From a virus, in the IMG/VR virus record IMGVR_UViG_3300031918_000852, positions 1 to 23,599 of that record: a DNA stretch of 23,599 nt, one strand, 5' to 3'. Position numbers and translations under genes: made by a program. Below are positions 13,426-23,599 of this stretch, piece by piece. The first letter of the stretch is position 1. Each line of letters starts with the position of its first letter. The notes beneath the pieces were generated by a model. That model was not told the DNA's origin. It searched no databases and was given only the letters and a program-made list of their open reading frames with translations.

Positions 13426-14904
13426 ATGGCAATTCTACGCAAAGGTTTCAATTTGGACTTCGCCGCGATGGCGAAGCAACTCGGCGTTCTTAACGATCCA
13501 ATCGTCAGCTTCTCGCGTTCCACCGGCGCGACTCGCATCAATCCGCTGACTGGTGTCGTGGAGTCCGTCGCCGCCAACATTCCGCGCATCTGCGGCCGGC
13601 AGGAACTTTGGAAGGCTGGGTGTAAGAACCTGTGCCCGTATTCAAATGACTTCACAAACGCTGCATGGAATTTGAAGAGCCTTTCAACAGTCGTTGCTAC
13701 AAGCGATGGGACGCTGGTAACATTTCAACCGGGGGACTCCTATTTAGGGATGTTTGCTGCGCTTCAAGTCGGCAGTCCTTATACTATCTCAGCGAAGGTC
13801 AAATCGGTAAACGGATCGGCATATAACATCGTAATCGAACAAAACGGAAGTTCCTCTGGTTTACCTGTTACCGCGGATTGGACAACCATATCCTACACGC
13901 ATACGGCGGGGGCGGCACAGTATTGGGTTTTCCGCCCCGGTAGTGGAACGTCAGTGTTAATAAAAGACGTTCAGGTTGAACAATCAGCTGTTGCCACTAC
14001 CTACGAGCCAAACCCCGTTGTACTTCAGCCGGGGCTTTGCGTTGAAGGCGCTGCAACGAACCTCGCTTTCAAAATGTCCGCCAATTACTGGGGAGGGGCT
14101 CCCGGTTGGAATGTTGGTTTTACTACTGCCCCGGATGGAAGCGGGGAAGCCGTTCGGGGTTCTTATGTTGGTAGCTATATCTACAATGTACTAACCAATG
14201 CCCCGACCAAATTTGTCTTTAGCTTTTGGGCCAAAGCGCCGGTTAACGGAACGACCGTTAATATGGAAGCCGGGTACACGATGAGAACCCTAACACTTAC
14301 GACCGAGTGGCGGCGCTACTTCCTCGTGGAAAACAACGCAACCCCGCGCGGGTATGTGTTTATAAGCGGGCCAAGTGCTGAAATCCACTTGTGGGGACCG
14401 CAGGTTGAAGCCAACGCGGAGGTTCCAACTGCATACATACCCACCGCAGGCGCAGCCGTAACCCGAGCTGCGGAAATTGCTAGCGTTGATGTATCCAAAA
14501 TTTGGAATCCGAACGAAGGCACAATTGTTTGTGAGGCTGACTTTGGGCCGGTTGGACCTGATAGGAAAATGGCATACTGCCCAATGGACTACCAGTTTAG
14601 CCCGATGGAGCGTGTTCCCGACACTGGGAACCAAGTTGTAGTTGCTGGCTGGTGGTTAGATTTTGGGGTGCTCACAAGGGCAAAAATAGCACAAGCAGTT
14701 AAACCGACTGAAATCCGTGCGGCTGGAAACGGAGGAAGTATAGTCAACCGGGTTGCTTCATACGGTCCATTGACGGTGACGAGTATAATTTTAGGAGCCG
14801 GTTCGAATGGCAACTGCCCGCTCAACGGCACTATTCAGCGTGTCGCATATCTCACATACGCATTGGACGACTATACCCTCAAATCAGCTTCAATCGTTAG
14901 CTAA
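13426..14904 (+). CDS. Receptor-binding / tail fibre protein with duplicated CBM-like domains
   Basis: This 492-residue protein has a short N-terminal part (1-60), typical of tip-attached fibres, with VSFSRSTGATRINPLTGVV. Two consecutive jelly-roll-like domains follow, residues about 66-196 and 202-345. Each ends in a matching signature (DVQVEQSAVATTYEPN and PQVEANAEVPTAYIPT), which points to internal duplication. Residues 350-492 resemble a LamG/concanavalin-type domain (SKIWNPNEGTIVCEADF). Such modules bind carbohydrate, so surface polysaccharide is the likely target. From about 13,650 to 14,880 the DNA is visibly more AT-rich than its neighbours, suggesting exchange of the binding part. 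The start has no SD and lies 22 nt after the tip-protein stop. Confidence 0.65.
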   Translation: MAILRKGFNLDFAAMAKQLGVLNDPIVSFSRSTGATRINPLTGVVESVAANIPRICGRQELWKAGCKNLCPYSNDFTNAAWNLKSLSTVVATSDGTLVTFQPGDSYLGMFAALQVGSPYTISAKVKSVNGSAYNIVIEQNGSSSGLPVTADWTTISYTHTAGAAQYWVFRPGSGTSVLIKDVQVEQSAVATTYEPNPVVLQPGLCVEGAATNLAFKMSANYWGGAPGWNVGFTTAPDGSGEAVRGSYVGSYIYNVLTNAPTKFVFSFWAKAPVNGTTVNMEAGYTMRTLTLTTEWRRYFLVENNATPRGYVFISGPSAEIHLWGPQVEANAEVPTAYIPTAGAAVTRAAEIASVDVSKIWNPNEGTIVCEADFGPVGPDRKMAYCPMDYQFSPMERVPDTGNQVVVAGWWLDFGVLTRAKIAQAVKPTEIRAAGNGGSIVNRVASYGPLTVTSIILGAGSNGNCPLNGTIQRVAYLTYALDDYTLKSASIVS

Positions 14905-16566: not shown

Positions 16567-17889
16567 ATGGGAACTAAACGTCAACCGAAAAAGGCAAGTC
16601 AGTTGCCGGTACCTGTTTTGGTTACCGAAAAGAGTAACCAGAGCAGCCAAGAATGGAAACCGCCTCGCGGAATTCTCTATCTCGCTACGCGTGAAGGGCG
16701 TCCGAAGCCTTTCGGCCTGCGTTGGCGAGAGCGGGGCAACCCAAAGCCACACTTCCAGTTTTTTGCGACAGAGGCTGAACGTCAGAAGGCGGCAAAGTCG
16801 TTGGCTGAGAAGCGTGCAGAGCATGGCCGCTCAATCTTGGAGTTCACCCCTGATGGGTGGGCCGAATACCTGGCAGCCAAGGAGCTTGCCGAGGGGCTAG
16901 ATCTTCGGGAGATGGCCAGAGAGTGGATGGCCGCGAGTGAGATTGCCGACGGTGCCGATCTGCGCACCGTAGCGCGTGAATGGCTGGCGTCGAAGGGTGG
17001 CGACACTGGTCAATTCCGGTCTGCCCTCACAGTTCGCGAGGCGGTTACCAAATATCTTGAACTGCGGTACACATCGGATGTGAACCAAGACGGCGACACC
17101 GGGCGGCATCTCGATCTGCATTTGGCGAAGCGCTTCGTCGGCGCGTTCGGTGACCTGATGGTCGATGAGGTGACGCCTGAGGCGATCCGCGATTGGTTGG
17201 CCAACATCAAGAGCAGCAAGACAGGCGAGAAGATCGGCAACCTATCGCGCCGTCATCACCGGAAAGACGTGAACACGTTTTTCAAACGCGCACAGCGCGA
17301 GGAATGGGTGAAAAAGAATCCGTGCGAGCGCGTGGACCTTCCGAAGATTCAGGTCAAGGACGTGCAGATTTTGACGGTGCAGCAGGCTAGGGCGATTCTT
17401 TCAAAGAACGTCGGCAGGCCGATCGCTGCGCGTCTCGCGTTGGAGATGTTTGGAGGCTTGCGTGCCGCGTCGGTCGAACGGTTGAAAAAGGAACACATCG
17501 ACTGGGATCGGAAGGGCATCCGCATGCCTGGCGAGCTGCACAAGAGCCAAAAGACTGTCTATCGCCAAGGGCAGCCCGACGTGTTGTGGGCTTGGCTGAC
17601 AGCGGCGACGGAAACGACGTGGACTGAAATCAACGAAGGAAACTACGGACACGAGAAGGTGAACGCGATCCGTCGCGCCTTCGGTCCCGACTTCACACTC
17701 CCCCATAACTCCATGCGCCATTCGTTCGCGAGCTACCATCTGGCCGCGAACAAATCGCTTTCGCAGACCGGCTACCTGATGCAGCACACCAGCACGCACA
17801 CGACCACGAAATACGAAGGGATGGCGCAAGAGCAGGACGCAAAAGATTACTTCGCGCTCACGCCGGATGCGGTGGTGAAGACGCCTTAA
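16567..17889 (+). CDS. int: Tyrosine-family phage integrase
   Basis: This 440-residue protein performs site-specific recombination between phage and host attachment sites. All catalytic positions are visible: Arg299 (FGGLRA), Lys326 or Lys329 (HKSQKTVY), His380-x-x-Arg384 (PHNSMRHSF), His407 (MQH) and nucleophile Tyr416 (TKYEG). Residues 152-258 look like the core-binding SAM-like domain. Residues 1-95 probably contain the arm-binding part. Residues 100-143 are an unusual tandem repeat with a 19-residue period. The catalytic-domain style (HNSMRHSFASYHLAANKS) recalls integrases of Verrucomicrobiota, from memory. It is transcribed away from the secreted-protein gene, with no SD before the ATG. 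Confidence 0.92.
   Translation: MGTKRQPKKASQLPVPVLVTEKSNQSSQEWKPPRGILYLATREGRPKPFGLRWRERGNPKPHFQFFATEAERQKAAKSLAEKRAEHGRSILEFTPDGWAEYLAAKELAEGLDLREMAREWMAASEIADGADLRTVAREWLASKGGDTGQFRSALTVREAVTKYLELRYTSDVNQDGDTGRHLDLHLAKRFVGAFGDLMVDEVTPEAIRDWLANIKSSKTGEKIGNLSRRHHRKDVNTFFKRAQREEWVKKNPCERVDLPKIQVKDVQILTVQQARAILSKNVGRPIAARLALEMFGGLRAASVERLKKEHIDWDRKGIRMPGELHKSQKTVYRQGQPDVLWAWLTAATETTWTEINEGNYGHEKVNAIRRAFGPDFTLPHNSMRHSFASYHLAANKSLSQTGYLMQHTSTHTTTKYEGMAQEQDAKDYFALTPDAVVKTP
16864..16995 (+). repeat. 19-residue (57-bp) tandem repeat inside the integrase
   Basis: Residues 100-118 and 119-137 align without gaps (11 of 19 identical: E, AA, E, A, G, DLR, AR positions), and a third partial copy starts at 138 (EWLASKGG). 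The DNA copies have diverged, so the duplication is old. It lies between the N-terminal part and the core-binding domain. Confidence 0.65.
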
Positions 17890-18239: not shown

Positions 18240-18515
18240 TTAGCGTAGCTCGTCAGGAATTCGCGGAACTTCGATGACCTTCCCGTCCTTAATCACAATG
18301 CGGAAGTTACCGCCCGTTCCCCAGCCTGTGCCGTAGGTCCACTGCCAGATATCATTCGGGCCGTCGGTGGTCATGAGGTAGGGCTTGCCCATGATTTGGC
18401 GCACCTCCTCTTTTGTCATGCCGACCTTTACGGCTCGGGCGTTCGACCAGGCGAAATGGGTGCCGACACAGCCGGCAAGAATGAGTGCGAGTAGGAGCGG
18501 GAGTAGTTTTTTCAT
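18240..18515 (-). CDS. Small BamE/SmpA-like lipoprotein
   Basis: This is a 91-residue protein. The N-terminus is a short lipoprotein signal (MKKLLPLLLALILAGC) with lipobox LAGC and Cys16. Residues 29-75 show the SmpA/OmlA/BamE-like pattern: VKVGMTKEEVRQIMGKP, then a loop, then IWQWTYGTG, then strands FRIVIKDGKVIEV. In cellular BamE this fold joins outer-membrane assembly; small phage and plasmid versions are usually of unknown role. It lies alone on the minus strand between the integrase and regulator genes. It is therefore a candidate for a gene expressed in the lysogen that alters the cell envelope, for example in exclusion of other phages. That role is inference. No SD is visible. A small hairpin (TACGC-tta-GCGTA, 18235-18247) encloses the stop codon. 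Confidence 0.7.
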   Translation of the reverse strand: MKKLLPLLLALILAGCVGTHFAWSNARAVKVGMTKEEVRQIMGKPYLMTTDGPNDIWQWTYGTGWGTGGNFRIVIKDGKVIEVPRIPDELR

Positions 18516-18740: not shown

Positions 18741-19019
18741 TCAGTCCTCTTTCAGCTTCCCTCTCAGCATTTGATCCTCTCTGACTTTTTTGAGGCGATC
18801 ATGTGCAGCGTGCCGCAGGAATGCAGCCGCAGTCCGCGATCCATCCAGCTTGGCCGCTACGCGCACCTCAGACAAGAGGTCCTTCGAAAGCTCTAAGTTA
18901 AATTGAGTCCATCCGTCTGGAAGGCGTTTCTTTTTCTGCACGCCCGACAGCCAAGATTCACGCCACAAACGTATCAATGCCCGAACTACCGCGTCCCCTG
19001 TTTTCCCTATATATTCCAT
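18741..19019 (-). CDS. Ribbon-helix-helix-like DNA-binding protein (RHH 1)
   Basis: This is a 92-residue protein. The start is placed at the ATG whose complement is 19017-19019; a TTG five codons upstream is possible but less likely. Residues 37-45 (WTQFNLELS) form the strand that would contact DNA. Helix A follows (KDLLSEVRVAAKLDG), then helix B (SRTAAAFLRHAAHDRLKK), the usual RHH arrangement of Arc/MetJ/CopG-type dimeric repressors. An N-terminal extension of about 35 basic and hydrophobic residues is unusual, because most RHH proteins begin with the strand. A perfect 9-bp-arm palindrome covers the start codon, so autoregulation is likely. It is the first of three RHH genes within 1 kb. Confidence 0.65.
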   Translation of the reverse strand: MEYIGKTGDAVVRALIRLWRESWLSGVQKKKRLPDGWTQFNLELSKDLLSEVRVAAKLDGSRTAAAFLRHAAHDRLKKVREDQMLRGKLKED

Positions 19020-19026
19020 AGGGAAA
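19002..19026. promoter_or_regulatory. Operator-like palindrome on the RHH 1 start codon
   Basis: TTTCCCTAT (19002-19010) and ATAGGGAAA (19018-19026) are perfect inverse copies with 9-bp arms and a 7-nt spacer. The RHH 1 ATG (19017-19019 on the complement) lies at the edge of one arm. TATATT at 19010-19015 could be a -10 for the opposite + strand direction. Binding here would block both directions. Confidence 0.7.
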
Positions 19027-19053
19027 CGACGCAATCAATCCCACCAATTACCC

Positions 19054-19257
19054 ATGTTCAACGTAACCAAAATCGGAAACCAGATCAGCAATCCCGTCAC
19101 GATTGACGAAGCAAAACACGAACGCCTGCGGCGTGATATCTTGCGAGCGAACACATCGTTTGAGCTTAGGATTGTTTCTTTCGCTTTGCTTGCTGAGTGT
19201 CGACGTCTGGCAAATTTGCCTTTCGCTCAGCAAGGTAAAGCTCGACGGCCTTTCTGA
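19054..19257 (+). CDS. Small hypothetical protein, doubtful
   Basis: This is a possible 67-residue protein divergent from RHH 1. It has a strand-like start (NPVTIDEAKHERLRR) and a helical middle (ELRIVSFALLAECRRL), but no family is recognised. There is no SD. The leader, ending in TTACCC before the ATG, looks like those of other genes in this window. Its last 92 bases overlap the 3' end of the better supported minus-strand RHH 2 gene, which counts against it. Against that, it begins 28 nt beyond the palindrome in a position where a divergently controlled gene would be expected. Confidence 0.35.
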   Translation: MFNVTKIGNQISNPVTIDEAKHERLRRDILRANTSFELRIVSFALLAECRRLANLPFAQQGKARRPF

Positions 19258-19405
19258 TTAATGCAGAGAGCCTGCCTTTCTTCGCAACGGTTGGGAACTC
19301 ATCGTCAGCTGCGGATCGAATCGCAATATCGATCTCGTTTGAGATTTGAAACGTGATTCTCCGACCGTCGCGAATTGGTGGGTTTTTACGATCATGTTTT
19401 TGCAT
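19166..19405 (-). CDS. Ribbon-helix-helix DNA-binding protein (RHH 2)
   Basis: This is a 79-residue protein if started at the third in-frame ATG (complement of 19403-19405); the ATGs at 19417 and 19435 would add 4 or 10 residues. The third is preferred because an inverted repeat and a -10-like CATAAT (complement of 19434-19439) lie just upstream. RRITFQISNEIDIAIRSAAD gives the DNA-contacting strand and helix A. SALIRKAVELYLAERK gives helix B, as in Arc/MetJ-type repressors. The basic C-terminus (AKRKKQS) could add DNA contact. It is divergent from RHH 3, with an operator-rich region between them. Confidence 0.72.
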   Translation of the reverse strand: MQKHDRKNPPIRDGRRITFQISNEIDIAIRSAADDEFPTVAKKGRLSALIRKAVELYLAERKANLPDVDTQQAKRKKQS

Positions 19406-19420
19406 GACACATGTCATGCA
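19401..19420. promoter_or_regulatory. 20-bp operator-like palindrome at the RHH 2 start
   Basis: TGCATGACA (19401-19409) and TGTCATGCA (19412-19420) are perfect inverse copies with 9-bp arms separated by CA. The preferred RHH 2 ATG (complement of 19403-19405) lies in one arm. The inner TGACA/TGTCA half-sites resemble the TGTCTGACA boxes nearby. Confidence 0.7.
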
Positions 19421-19421
19421 C

Positions 19422-19434
19422 TGTCTGACAGACA
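19422..19434. promoter_or_regulatory. TGTCTGACA operator box 1
   Basis: TGTCTG-A-CAGACA is a 13-bp perfect inverted repeat. It sits next to CATAAT, a good -10 for the minus strand, so it would overlap the RHH 2 transcription start. Its 9-base core is repeated at 19506-19514. Confidence 0.55.
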
Positions 19435-19469
19435 TTATGCAAGTAACTAATTGGTAGGGTTAGACCCCG

Positions 19470-19497
19470 TTGACCTTGTAGGGGGAATCATTATTTT
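19470..19497 (+). promoter_or_regulatory. Candidate promoter for the RHH 3 operon
   Basis: TTGACC at 19470-19475 and TATTTT at 19492-19497 are separated by 16 bases, with five and four matches to the sigma-70 consensus hexamers. Transcription would start near 19505, on operator box 2, about 30 nt before the RHH 3 ATG. Confidence 0.45.
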
Positions 19498-19504
19498 GTT
19501 GCGC

Positions 19505-19515
19505 GTGTCTGACAC
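19505..19515. promoter_or_regulatory. TGTCTGACA operator box 2
   Basis: GTGTC-T-GACAC is a perfect inverted repeat containing the same TGTCTGACA core as box 1. A weaker related copy, GTCCGACA, lies just before the RHH 3 start codon at 19536. Confidence 0.5.
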
Positions 19516-19535
19516 AGAACACTACGGTCCGACAC

Positions 19536-19739
19536 ATGGCACGAATCACTTTTAGACCAGACGATGAATTGGTTGCAGTTCTAGAAAAGGCAGAGCGCGA
19601 TACCGGACTGACCTCGAGCGAGCTTTGTCGGTTGAGCATTGCTGAATGGGTAGCCAAGCAAAAACCCGAGCAGATAATTAAGGCCAATGTTGCACGCCGG
19701 ATTAAATCGGCACGCGGGAAAACGAGGACGGCCGCATGA
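19536..19739 (+). CDS. Ribbon-helix-helix DNA-binding protein (RHH 3)
   Basis: This is a 67-residue protein. The strand ARITFRPDD at the very N-terminus, helix A (ELVAVLEKAERDTG), the turn LTSSE and helix B (LCRLSIAEWVAKQ) make a complete compact RHH domain. A Lys/Arg-rich tail follows (VARRIKSARGKTRTAA). It is the first gene of the rightward early operon and its stop overlaps the next start, so it could be a Cro- or Arc-like regulator that controls its own operon. It faces RHH 2 across an operator-rich 130-nt region. There is no clear SD at the ATG. Confidence 0.7.
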   Translation: MARITFRPDDELVAVLEKAERDTGLTSSELCRLSIAEWVAKQKPEQIIKANVARRIKSARGKTRTAA

Positions 19740-19924
19740 GCTACGAGGATCAAGCGATCGTCACGATGCTCGTGGTGGCTGCCGTCAGCTGCGTCGCGGT
19801 GTTCGTCATAACCGAAGTTCGTGCTCGCCGTCGTCATCGGAAGCTGATCGCAGGACTCGATGCGATGGCCCGCGGTGAGGCTCAGTTCTCACGCACACGT
19901 CGCTGCAAGGAGATCGTCGCATGA
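19736..19924 (+). CDS. Small single-span membrane protein
   Basis: This 62-residue protein starts at an ATG overlapping the RHH 3 stop, with GAGG 8 nt before it (19724-19727). One membrane segment lies at residues 8-26 (IVTMLVVAAVSCVAVFVIT). An Arg-rich stretch (RARRRHRK) follows, which would keep the C-terminus in the cytoplasm, and then a short helix. Its function is unknown. Small membrane proteins in early phage operons sometimes affect exclusion or host division, but nothing here decides that. The stop overlaps the next gene. Confidence 0.55.
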   Translation: MSYEDQAIVTMLVVAAVSCVAVFVITEVRARRRHRKLIAGLDAMARGEAQFSRTRRCKEIVA

Positions 19925-20196
19925 GCACAGAGGAAAAACTAGATCGCGTGCTCACAGAGCTGACCGACGTAAAGCGGGAACTCGCGGACGTGAAACTACG
20001 GCTGCCGGTTGCTCAGAAGCGCGAGCCGATGCCTCCGACCCTGCTGCTGAAAGATTTCTGCAAGCGCTGCAATCGCTCCGTTTTTTGGGGATACGAGATG
20101 ATTAAGCGTCGGAAGATCATCCCTTGCAAAACCGGCAAGCCATACGAAGTCCCGGTCGAGCAGCTTCAAAACTTTCTAGGGAGGGCTGCAAAGTGA
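19921..20196 (+). CDS. Excisionase-like winged-helix DNA-binding protein
   Basis: This is a 91-residue protein with a strong SD (AAGGAG at 19907-19912). Residues 1-28 form a short coiled coil with heptads (EEKLDRVLTELTDVKRELAD). Residues 40-90 match small MerR/excisionase-type winged helices: LLLKDFCKRCNRSVFWGYEMI, then KRRKIIP, then a wing, then EVPVEQLQNFL. Proteins like this bend attachment-site DNA and direct the integrase towards excision. Its place in an early operon a few kb from the integrase fits an Xis role. A transcription regulator is the alternative. Cys47, Cys50 and Cys69 are noticeable, but metal binding is not supported by a fourth ligand. Confidence 0.6.
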   Translation: MSTEEKLDRVLTELTDVKRELADVKLRLPVAQKREPMPPTLLLKDFCKRCNRSVFWGYEMIKRRKIIPCKTGKPYEVPVEQLQNFLGRAAK

Positions 20197-21876: not shown

Positions 21877-23106
21877 ATGGCACTACAAATCATCAAAGGA
21901 AAGATTGCTGCCCCAGTGCGCGGCATCTTCAGCGGAACCGAGGGCATCGGTAAATCTACGCTCGCTGCGCAGATTCCGGGCGCTGTCTTCATCGATACCG
22001 AAGACGGTTCCAGTCAAATCGACTGCGCCAGAATCCTCGCCACCGATTGGCGTGCGATCGAGAACGCGGTCAAGGAACTGATCGCAGACCAGCAAGGTTT
22101 CACCACCGTAGTCATCGACACCGCCGACTGGCTTGAACGCGCACTCATCGAGTGGATGCTCAAGCGGGACGCGCAGAAATCAATCGAGTCCTACGGATAC
22201 GGGAAAGGGTACACGATGCTGCAAGAGCATTTCGCCCGGTTCCTGGCTCTGTGTGACCAGTTGATCGCGAAAGGCATTCACGTCGTGTTCGTGGCTCACA
22301 CGAAGACGGTCCGCGTCTCGCCTCCCGACCAGACGGACGGTTACGACCGCTGGGAACTCAAGCTGACGAAGCAGGTTTCACCGCTCCTCAAAGAGTGGTC
22401 CACGCTGTATCTGTTCGCCAACTACAAGATTCAGATCGTGGAAGGCACGGACGGACGGCTCAAGGCTCAGGGCGGAAAAGAACGCGTCATGTACGCGAAC
22501 CGTTGCGCCGCTTGGGATGCGAAAAACCGTTACGGACTGCCCGACGAAATGCCGATGGACTTTGCGCAGGTCGCGAAGGTCTTTGACGGTGCAGTGGCGC
22601 GGCCACTCGTCAACGTCGCTCCGGTCGCTCCGGTTGTGGCACCCACAGTCAGCACGGAACCAGTCCCGACGCTCGCCACGATGGAACAGCTGGCGCAGCT
22701 GCTCGAATTCAAGAAGTCGAAGAAAGGCGCTGAGATGATCGAGGCCGCGCTCGAACAGATCAACGGCATCGACTGCTCAGAGCTGACAGTCGAACAGATC
22801 AACGGCATCGACTGCTCAGAGCTGACAGTCGAACAGGCCGCCGAGCTGATCACCAACATCGATGTCGCGCTTCCGAAGGTCGCGTCATCCACCAACCCAA
22901 CCGTTCCCGGCAATCTTCCGCCTCACTTCGTAAAGTGGCTCGATGCGAATGCCGATGCGGTCAACGCGTACCTGGTTCGCGTCAAGTGGCTGGTAGCTGG
23001 TCAGACGTGGCGCGATCTAACCGACGAAAAGGCGCACAGCATCGTCGACAAGTCCGACAAGTTCGCTCGTGCAGCCGGTATCACGGCCATCGGAGGTGCA
23101 AAGTGA
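21877..23106 (+). CDS. Sak4-like RecA-fold ATPase (phage recombination)
   Basis: This is a 409-residue protein. Walker A is GTEGIGKST at residues 20-28, with an acidic strand after it (VFIDTEDG). Walker B is VVIDTADW at 78-85, and the motif FVAHTK at 138-143 matches the sensor of phage RecA-like ATPases (Sak4 / AAA_24 group). These bind single-stranded DNA and promote annealing in phage recombination. Residues about 245-270 form a Pro/Val-rich linker, and 270-409 form a helical C-terminal extension. The extension contains a perfect 39-bp tandem duplication (residues 293-318). It starts 6 nt after the previous stop without SD and is overlapped by the next gene. Assignment to the ATPase group is firm; the exact role is inferred. 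Confidence 0.8.
   Translation: MALQIIKGKIAAPVRGIFSGTEGIGKSTLAAQIPGAVFIDTEDGSSQIDCARILATDWRAIENAVKELIADQQGFTTVVIDTADWLERALIEWMLKRDAQKSIESYGYGKGYTMLQEHFARFLALCDQLIAKGIHVVFVAHTKTVRVSPPDQTDGYDRWELKLTKQVSPLLKEWSTLYLFANYKIQIVEGTDGRLKAQGGKERVMYANRCAAWDAKNRYGLPDEMPMDFAQVAKVFDGAVARPLVNVAPVAPVVAPTVSTEPVPTLATMEQLAQLLEFKKSKKGAEMIEAALEQINGIDCSELTVEQINGIDCSELTVEQAAELITNIDVALPKVASSTNPTVPGNLPPHFVKWLDANADAVNAYLVRVKWLVAGQTWRDLTDEKAHSIVDKSDKFARAAGITAIGGAK
22753..22830 (+). repeat. 39-bp perfect tandem duplication
   Basis: Bases 22753-22791 and 22792-22830 are identical. They encode 13 residues twice in frame (EQINGIDCSELTV). No base has changed between the copies, so the duplication is recent or actively maintained. 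It lengthens the helical C-terminal extension of the Sak4-like protein. Confidence 0.95.
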
Positions 23107-23599
23107 AAATTGAAATCAAAACAGTCTTCGGCGATCTCATATTTGAAGGTGATTTCACCTGCATGGCAGAGGCGATCAAGGCCGCGCTAGCGGCCAAAAA
23201 ATCGCTCAGCTCTGCGGACCTCAGCTCTGCGGACCTCCGCTATGCGGACCTCAGCTCTGCGGACCTCAGCTCTGCGAACCTCCGCTCTGCGAACCTCCGC
23301 TCTGCGAACCTCAGCTCTGCGGACCTCAGCTCTGCGGACCTCCGCTATGCGGACCTCAGCTCTGCGAACCTCAGCTATGCGAACCTCAGCTATGCGGACC
23401 TCAGCTCTGCGGACCTCAGCTCTGCGGACCTCCGCTATGCGGACCTCAGCTCTGCGGACCTCAGCTATGCGAACCTCAGCTCTGCGAACCTCCGCGAAAC
23501 AAAGGGATCAGCGTTAGCCATCGCTCAAACACGGATTTTGCCAGAGGGCAATATCATCGGATGGAAGATGCTTTGCGGTGGTATCATTGCAAAAATACT
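23103..23599 (+). CDS. Pentapeptide-repeat protein (3' end outside window)
   Basis: The GTG start overlaps the Sak4 stop (GTGA) and has GGAGG at 23092-23096. Residues 1-34 are a small beta/helix cap (IEIKTVFGDLIFEGDF). Nineteen pentapeptides of the form A-(D/N)-L-(S/R)-(S/Y) follow, which should fold as a right-handed quadrilateral beta-helix. After the repeats comes a different domain beginning ALAIAQTRILPEGNIIGWK, similar from memory to the DUF5758-type tail found on phage pentapeptide proteins. The window ends inside it. Some pentapeptide proteins mimic DNA and bind gyrase (Qnr, MfpA), but this function is not shown here. Other frames across the repeat are also open because the 15-nt unit is a multiple of three; this frame is fixed by the start, SD and composition. 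Confidence 0.85.
   Translation, partial: MKIEIKTVFGDLIFEGDFTCMAEAIKAALAAKKSLSSADLSSADLRYADLSSADLSSANLRSANLRSANLSSADLSSADLRYADLSSANLSYANLSYADLSSADLSSADLRYADLSSADLSYANLSSANLRETKGSALAIAQTRILPEGNIIGWKMLCGGIIAKI
23206..23490 (+). repeat. 19 tandem 15-bp units encoding pentapeptides
   Basis: The unit is TC(A/C)GCT(C/A)TGCG(G/A)ACC. Across 19 units only those three positions vary, each between two bases and each changing the amino acid (Ser/Arg, Ser/Tyr, Asp/Asn). Units 1-4 and 14-17 are identical over 60 bases. Units 8-11 match them except for one base. There are no silent differences anywhere in the array. Confidence 0.95.

Follow-up and report, generated by a model that had tools for sequence, protein, structure and literature searches.

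Two divergently transcribed genes for small ribbon-helix-helix (RHH) proteins, RHH2 and RHH3, lie between the integration gene and the early genes of the phage analysed here and most likely constitute its on/off switch for dormancy. In most known phages, another kind of repressor sits at the dormancy switch. RHH proteins are textbook DNA binders, and those of phages are chiefly known as accessory regulators, for example Arc and Mnt of P22. The initial annotation had proposed that three RHH proteins may be the main lysis-lysogeny control of this phage. This idea gains from 13 further phages with such an arrangement, from conserved paired operator-like sites and from negative searches for CI-type genes in relatives, yet it applies to a pair of proteins, not to three. 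Descriptions of RHH proteins as the main switch in such phages were not found in the literature searched, which was covered in part. What appears to be new is comparative, namely the recurrence of a divergent RHH pair at the same functional position in at least 13 related phages of Verrucomicrobiota-type bacteria.

RHH genes in the window

The window, i.e. the whole stretch of DNA that was analysed, is an entire linear IMG/VR record of 23,599 bases and represents an incomplete phage. A second record (G001), 99.8% identical to the window across 11.8 kb, extends the phage leftward by 6.1 kb carrying packaging and head-type genes, so that 29.7 kb of the phage are known. The window encodes, in this order, tail genes, the integrase, a BamE-like lipoprotein, RHH1, RHH2, RHH3, small genes and a Sak4-like recombination gene (Table 1), with the lipoprotein, RHH1 and RHH2 on the leftward strand. 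Integrases 44-46% identical to that of the window are present in genomes of Verrucomicrobiota, a phylum with very few studied phages, and judging from the relatives, the host presumably is a Verrucomicrobiota-type bacterium. Family searches gave no match for the small membrane protein encoded after RHH3. The C-terminal part of the Sak4-like protein contains an in-frame tandem duplication (EQINGIDCSELTV), and near the right end of the record there is an ORF (23242-23517) composed of near-perfect 5-residue repeats (RTSAL/RTSAM).

Table 1. Genes and candidate regulatory sites in the window
Feature	Position	Strand	Evidence
Tyrosine integrase	16567..17889	+	phrog_1, E 1.9e-21
BamE-domain lipoprotein, predicted last gene of lysogenic operon	18240..18515	-	Pfam BamE, 28.4 vs 23.2 bits
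'RHH1' ORF, RHH assignment unsupported	18741..19034	-	no profile match
Perfect inverted repeat TTTCCCTAT-N7-ATAGGGAAA, over 5' end of RHH1 ORF	19002..19026	.	
RHH2, predicted lysogenic repressor	ORF 19166-19435	-	independent RHH profile; position
Operator-like palindrome TGCATGACA-CA-TGTCATGCA, at RHH2 start	19401..19420	.	shuffling
Operator-like palindrome TGTCTGACAGACA	19422..19434	.	
ACCCCGTTGA motif and predicted early promoter TTGACC-N16-TATTTT	19464..19497	+	
Operator-like pair GTGTCTGAC-N13-GTCCGACAC, between predicted early promoter and RHH3	19505..19535	.	
RHH3, CopG-type RHH, head of early operon	19536..19739	+	Pfam RHH_1, 22.4 bits, cut-off 20.5
Small predicted membrane protein, early operon gene 2	19736..19924	+	sequence
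Probable excisionase/HTH_17-type protein (weak)	19921..20196	+	phrog_66, E 0.19 only; synteny
Sak4-like ssDNA annealing protein, early operon	21877..23106	+	Pfam AAA_24, E 9e-45; phrog_124, E 2e-47

The three ORFs that had been read as RHH genes within 1 kb are placed and oriented as described at the time, and for two of them family searches bore out the assignment. RHH3 is recognised by Pfam. RHH2 matched Pfam RHH_3/RHH_6 below the cut-off only (E 0.042-0.065) and was identified with an independent profile of 22 RHH proteins, all of them from other phages and none from the window. Among the 241 window ORFs this profile ranked RHH2 first (E 7.6e-4) and RHH3 second (E 1.8e-3), the third-ranked ORF being far behind (E 0.43). 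RHH2 also occupies the position of the leftward RHH genes in the integrase-type relatives described below; its start is likelier to be the ATG at 19405 than that at 19435, which would place the gene at 19166..19405. RHH1, on the other hand, produced no RHH match in Pfam, NCBIfam or with RHH profiles, and was rejected as a third RHH for want of any support, its label having been assigned by eye alone. Since RHH1 matches nothing while both RHH2 and RHH3 match, the finding is a pair and not a trio. Single-sequence AlphaFold models of RHH1 (all helical, low confidence, pLDDT 65) and RHH2 (pLDDT 71) were too poor, and Foldseek gave no fold match. None of the window RHHs matches the Arc family in Pfam, and no window protein matches Arc/Mnt families. 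Direct relatives of RHH2 and RHH3 were found neither in IMG/VR nor in INPHARED. The window RHHs share only 7-25% identity with RHHs of other phages, and their kinship therefore rests on profile matches and synteny.

Divergent RHH pairs in other phages

The 13 other phages with a divergent RHH pair comprise three of integrase type and ten others, giving 14 with the window; the route to these relatives led solely through Sak4, integrase and tail-protein neighbours. A Sak4 profile retrieved two Verrucomicrobia prophages (L041 and L042), and the integrase search a third (L126). The integrases of relatives were searched with phrog_1; Pfam Phage_integrase is blind to this integrase family. All three prophages have the gene order of the window, i.e. 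integrase, leftward RHH, rightward RHH, HTH_17 excisionase-like gene and early genes, with the gene at 19921-20196 of the window occupying the place of their excisionase-like genes. The RHHs of L126 are visibly paralogues of each other. The possibility that the pair is tied to the integrase type was considered and rejected, because two integrase relatives at 44-46% identity (G152 and G095) have other neighbourhoods and several other integrase relatives have an excisionase-like gene right after the integrase without an RHH pair. A tail-tip scan of genomes made no finds. Two related phages (L006 and L010) carry a CsrA-like small gene immediately upstream of Sak4 (2323-2523 and 2303-2512, respectively) and, by eye, also an XRE-like gene.

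Divergent RHH genes are also present in two relatives by tail protein, G010 and G011, in both of which the lysogeny-side gene is followed by one for a BamE-type lipoprotein. One of these lipoproteins is 43% identical to that of the window and the other is a different BamE lipoprotein, so a BamE-like lipoprotein ends the lysogeny-side operon in the window and two relatives. BamE lipoproteins repeatedly adjoin the lysogeny-side RHH (18240-18515 in the window, 14314-14607 in L030, 3315-3734 in L035) and may be superinfection exclusion or lysogenic conversion genes. Scans with G010 and G011 proteins yielded L132, L133, L135, L136, L138 and L140, and the pair is present in all six; L137 duplicates L136 and was left out of the count. 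A search of 387 Verrucomicrobiota genomes revealed the pair in two more (L148 and L149). Pairing of RHH genes is not trivial, since this search also gave three weaker hits (L150-L152) with a single RHH gene and no second one divergent from it. MuA/MuB-like transposition genes are present in 8/10 non-integrase pair phages, two of the eight residing in Verrucomicrobiota chromosomes, a count in which L132 and L133 are represented by short flanks only. Where both ends are visible, the early RHH heads an operon leading to the transposition genes.

Mu-like transposable phages or prophages of Verrucomicrobiota were encountered at L153 (G063), L154 (G272), L030-L035 (G010, G011) and L135-L144, and are apparently undescribed. 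Their MuB-type ATPases match phrog_296 with E-values down to 8e-40; their transposase-like proteins were recognised by no Pfam or PHROG model. Bro-N (antirepressor-type) genes lie directly behind or beside RHH genes in L138 (5148-5810), L153 (8637-9368) and L150 (1735-2331), in L138 and L153 after the early RHH; Bro-N was confirmed by Pfam in L138 only and was assigned by eye in L153. A small ORF that encodes cysteines and converges with the RHH gene of the lysogeny side (L136 4445-4639, +; L035 3077-3373, -; L030 near 14113-14300, -) looks conserved (ETxEGMSPEE...ARIIR...CESC).

Operator-like sites and DNA-contacting ribbons

The matched palindromes pointed out in the initial annotation are real. 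The window has four such sites, all composed of TGTC/GACA: one pair is located at the start of RHH2 and the other lies downstream of the predicted rightward promoter, ahead of RHH3. The arm length of TGCATGACA-CA-TGTCATGCA was reached in 0/500 shuffles of the region. Eight GACA/TGTC half-sites within 145 nt represent the densest cluster of the 23.6 kb, and by shuffling P is 0.001 for this tetramer and 0.038 for any tetramer class. The word TGTCTGACA occurs twice, at 19422 and at 19506. The predicted rightward promoter has a weakly matching -10 element (TATTTT), and the three integrase relatives share an ACCCCRTTGA motif with the window. An inverted repeat of the form GGG(G)T-N3/4-ACCC(C) immediately precedes the TTGA element in the window (19455-19470), L042 (8317-8334) and L126 (near 1790-1806), and may be the site of a second regulator.

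Paired operator-like repeats in the intergenic regions are clade-specific. In L041 and L042, GTGCAC occurs twice at each promoter, four times in all, with matched spacing, and in L042 these four are the only copies within 14 kb. An inverted pair GTTTAACRCCC ... GGGYGTTAAAC is common to seven phages of the Mu-type clade, in which one repeat falls between the -35 and -10 elements of the early promoter; the word GTTTAACRCCC was found nowhere else among the clade loci scanned. In the clearest cases of this clade, the early promoter is TTGACn-17-TAACtn and the operator-like site is within the spacer.

The DNA-contacting ribbons of the two RHHs are more alike within a phage than in shuffled pairings (P about 1e-4), as estimated with one phage per clade and with anchors set manually according to a fixed rule. 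The window, for example, has RITFR/RITFQ, and G010 has VFIGTW/VFVGIW. Across the Mu-type clade, operator base R tracks the type of the lysogeny-side ribbon, being A with VF-type and G with KLLGF-type ribbons; one KLIG-type ribbon goes with A. The similarity of the RHH2 and RHH3 ribbons is only suggestive of shared operators. Alternatively, the likeness within phages may be due to shared ancestry of the pair.

A putative RHH switch and known regulatory systems

RHH2 and RHH3 probably act as a divergent two-repressor switch heading the early region. DNA binding by these proteins, the direction of regulation, the repressor and Cro-like roles and the status of sole switch are what we infer from sequence. 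In the prophage, leftward expression would yield RHH2 and continue through the RHH1 ORF and the BamE-like lipoprotein gene, the three together forming the lysogenic operon. An RHH2 dimer or dimer array would bind the TGTC/GACA palindromes at both promoters; it would tune its own promoter and shut the early one, which would drive the genes for RHH3, the excisionase-like protein and recombination. Upon infection or induction, RHH3 would be made first and, via its similar ribbon, would bind the sites of RHH2, holding RHH2 off; later it may damp its own operon as a Cro-like early autoregulator. We know of no lysogens in culture for phages of this kind.

It is conceivable, albeit unlikely, that the pair plays an accessory part only, in immunity or antirepressor control as with P22 immI, and that the main repressor is CI-like and encoded outside the known sequence. 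P22 mnt-arc-ant is itself described in the literature as a secondary immunity region, in line with the accessory role ascribed to Arc and Mnt in the initial annotation. Such a role would also fit the Bro-N antirepressor-like genes of L138 and L153, and, because the window is an incomplete, linear fragment, a CI gene could lie elsewhere in the phage. Moreover, other verrucomicrobial phages do carry CI-type genes, namely Akkermansia phage Chantilly (HTH_3 and S24) and the related phage G008 (HTH_3), and an RHH switch would therefore be an alternative rather than the rule in the phylum. However, the place of the pair is that of CI/Cro or of Mu c/Ner, with the integrase on one side and the early operon on the other or else heading the transposition operon, and not in a late region. 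Neither HTH_3 (CI/Cro) nor S24 was detected in the window, in agreement with the earlier remark that no CI or Cro protein is visible between the integrase and the recombination genes, and the search for a CI-like gene beyond the window was likewise negative in the extra 6.1 kb of G001, covering 29.7 kb only. The sole helix-turn-helix hint in the known sequence is the weakly excisionase-like gene at 19921-20196. HTH_3 is also absent from G009, G010 (41 kb) and G011 (42 kb), and S24 from 12 records, among them the RHH-pair phage records tested. HTH_3 hits in G402-G404 were rejected as CI genes, since they belong to MuB-like ATPases.

We consider it still less probable that the action of RHH2 and RHH3 is confined to their own transcripts, as local autoregulators or antitoxin-like proteins without a part in the lysis/lysogeny decision. 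Antitoxins and plasmid copy regulators are very common among RHH proteins, and the best matches among solved structures are of antitoxin, CopG and NikR types, with weak RelB-like matches for RHH3. Yet Pfam and PHROG searches show no toxin-like partner beside the pair in the window, where the genes next to it encode a lipoprotein, a membrane protein and an excisionase-like protein; the operon context is one of integrase, excisionase-like, recombination or transposition genes, and two divergent RHHs with paired sites recur in 14 phages.

Going beyond the proposed two-repressor switch of the window, we are narrowly inclined towards a broader scenario, in which a class of temperate phages of Verrucomicrobiota, both integrating and transposing, uses an RHH-only lysis-lysogeny circuit whose proteins recognise the same operators and which replaces CI/Cro or, in Mu-like members, c/Ner. 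If true, the logic of CI/Cro can be built from another fold, the question arises what induces lysogens that lack a RecA-cleavable repressor, and the pair could serve as an annotation marker for temperate phages which now seem repressor-less. The idea of an RHH switch is directly testable at the 14 loci with their operator sets.

Several known systems resemble parts of this arrangement. In Pf prophages, an Arc-type RHH gene is found where the usual repressor is missing (12/182 lack repressor C but have an Arc-type gene), although these are filamentous phages with a single RHH gene of putative function (PMC7549136). Type II toxin-antitoxin systems differ in that no toxin gene was recognised among the operon neighbours in the window. 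As in lambda CI/Cro, there is a predicted repressor divergent from a putative Cro-like gene, with paired operator-like sites at both promoters, an early operon behind the Cro-like gene and an integrase nearby, but RHH stands in place of helix-turn-helix. No HTH_3/XRE repressor or S24 cleavage domain was found; therefore, induction would have to work in some other way. In Mu, the MuA/MuB genes lie behind c/ner, and in the eight pair relatives with MuA/MuB-like genes these lie behind the early RHH wherever the sequence shows both; RHH proteins are there in place of the HTH proteins c and Ner, whereas the window phage has an integrase instead of Mu genes. The nearest known architecture is that of P22 Mnt/Arc. 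In both, two RHHs flank one divergent control region, with operator-like sites between them in the window; Mnt acts in lysogeny and Arc heads the lytic operon, the predicted counterparts being RHH2 and RHH3, and some relatives described here have a Bro-N antirepressor-type gene after the early RHH. The window has no antirepressor gene behind its early RHH. Furthermore, P22 immI is a second immunity region, located in the late operon beside c2/cro, whereas the pair described here, with no CI-type gene in the 29.7 kb known, is at the main-switch position.
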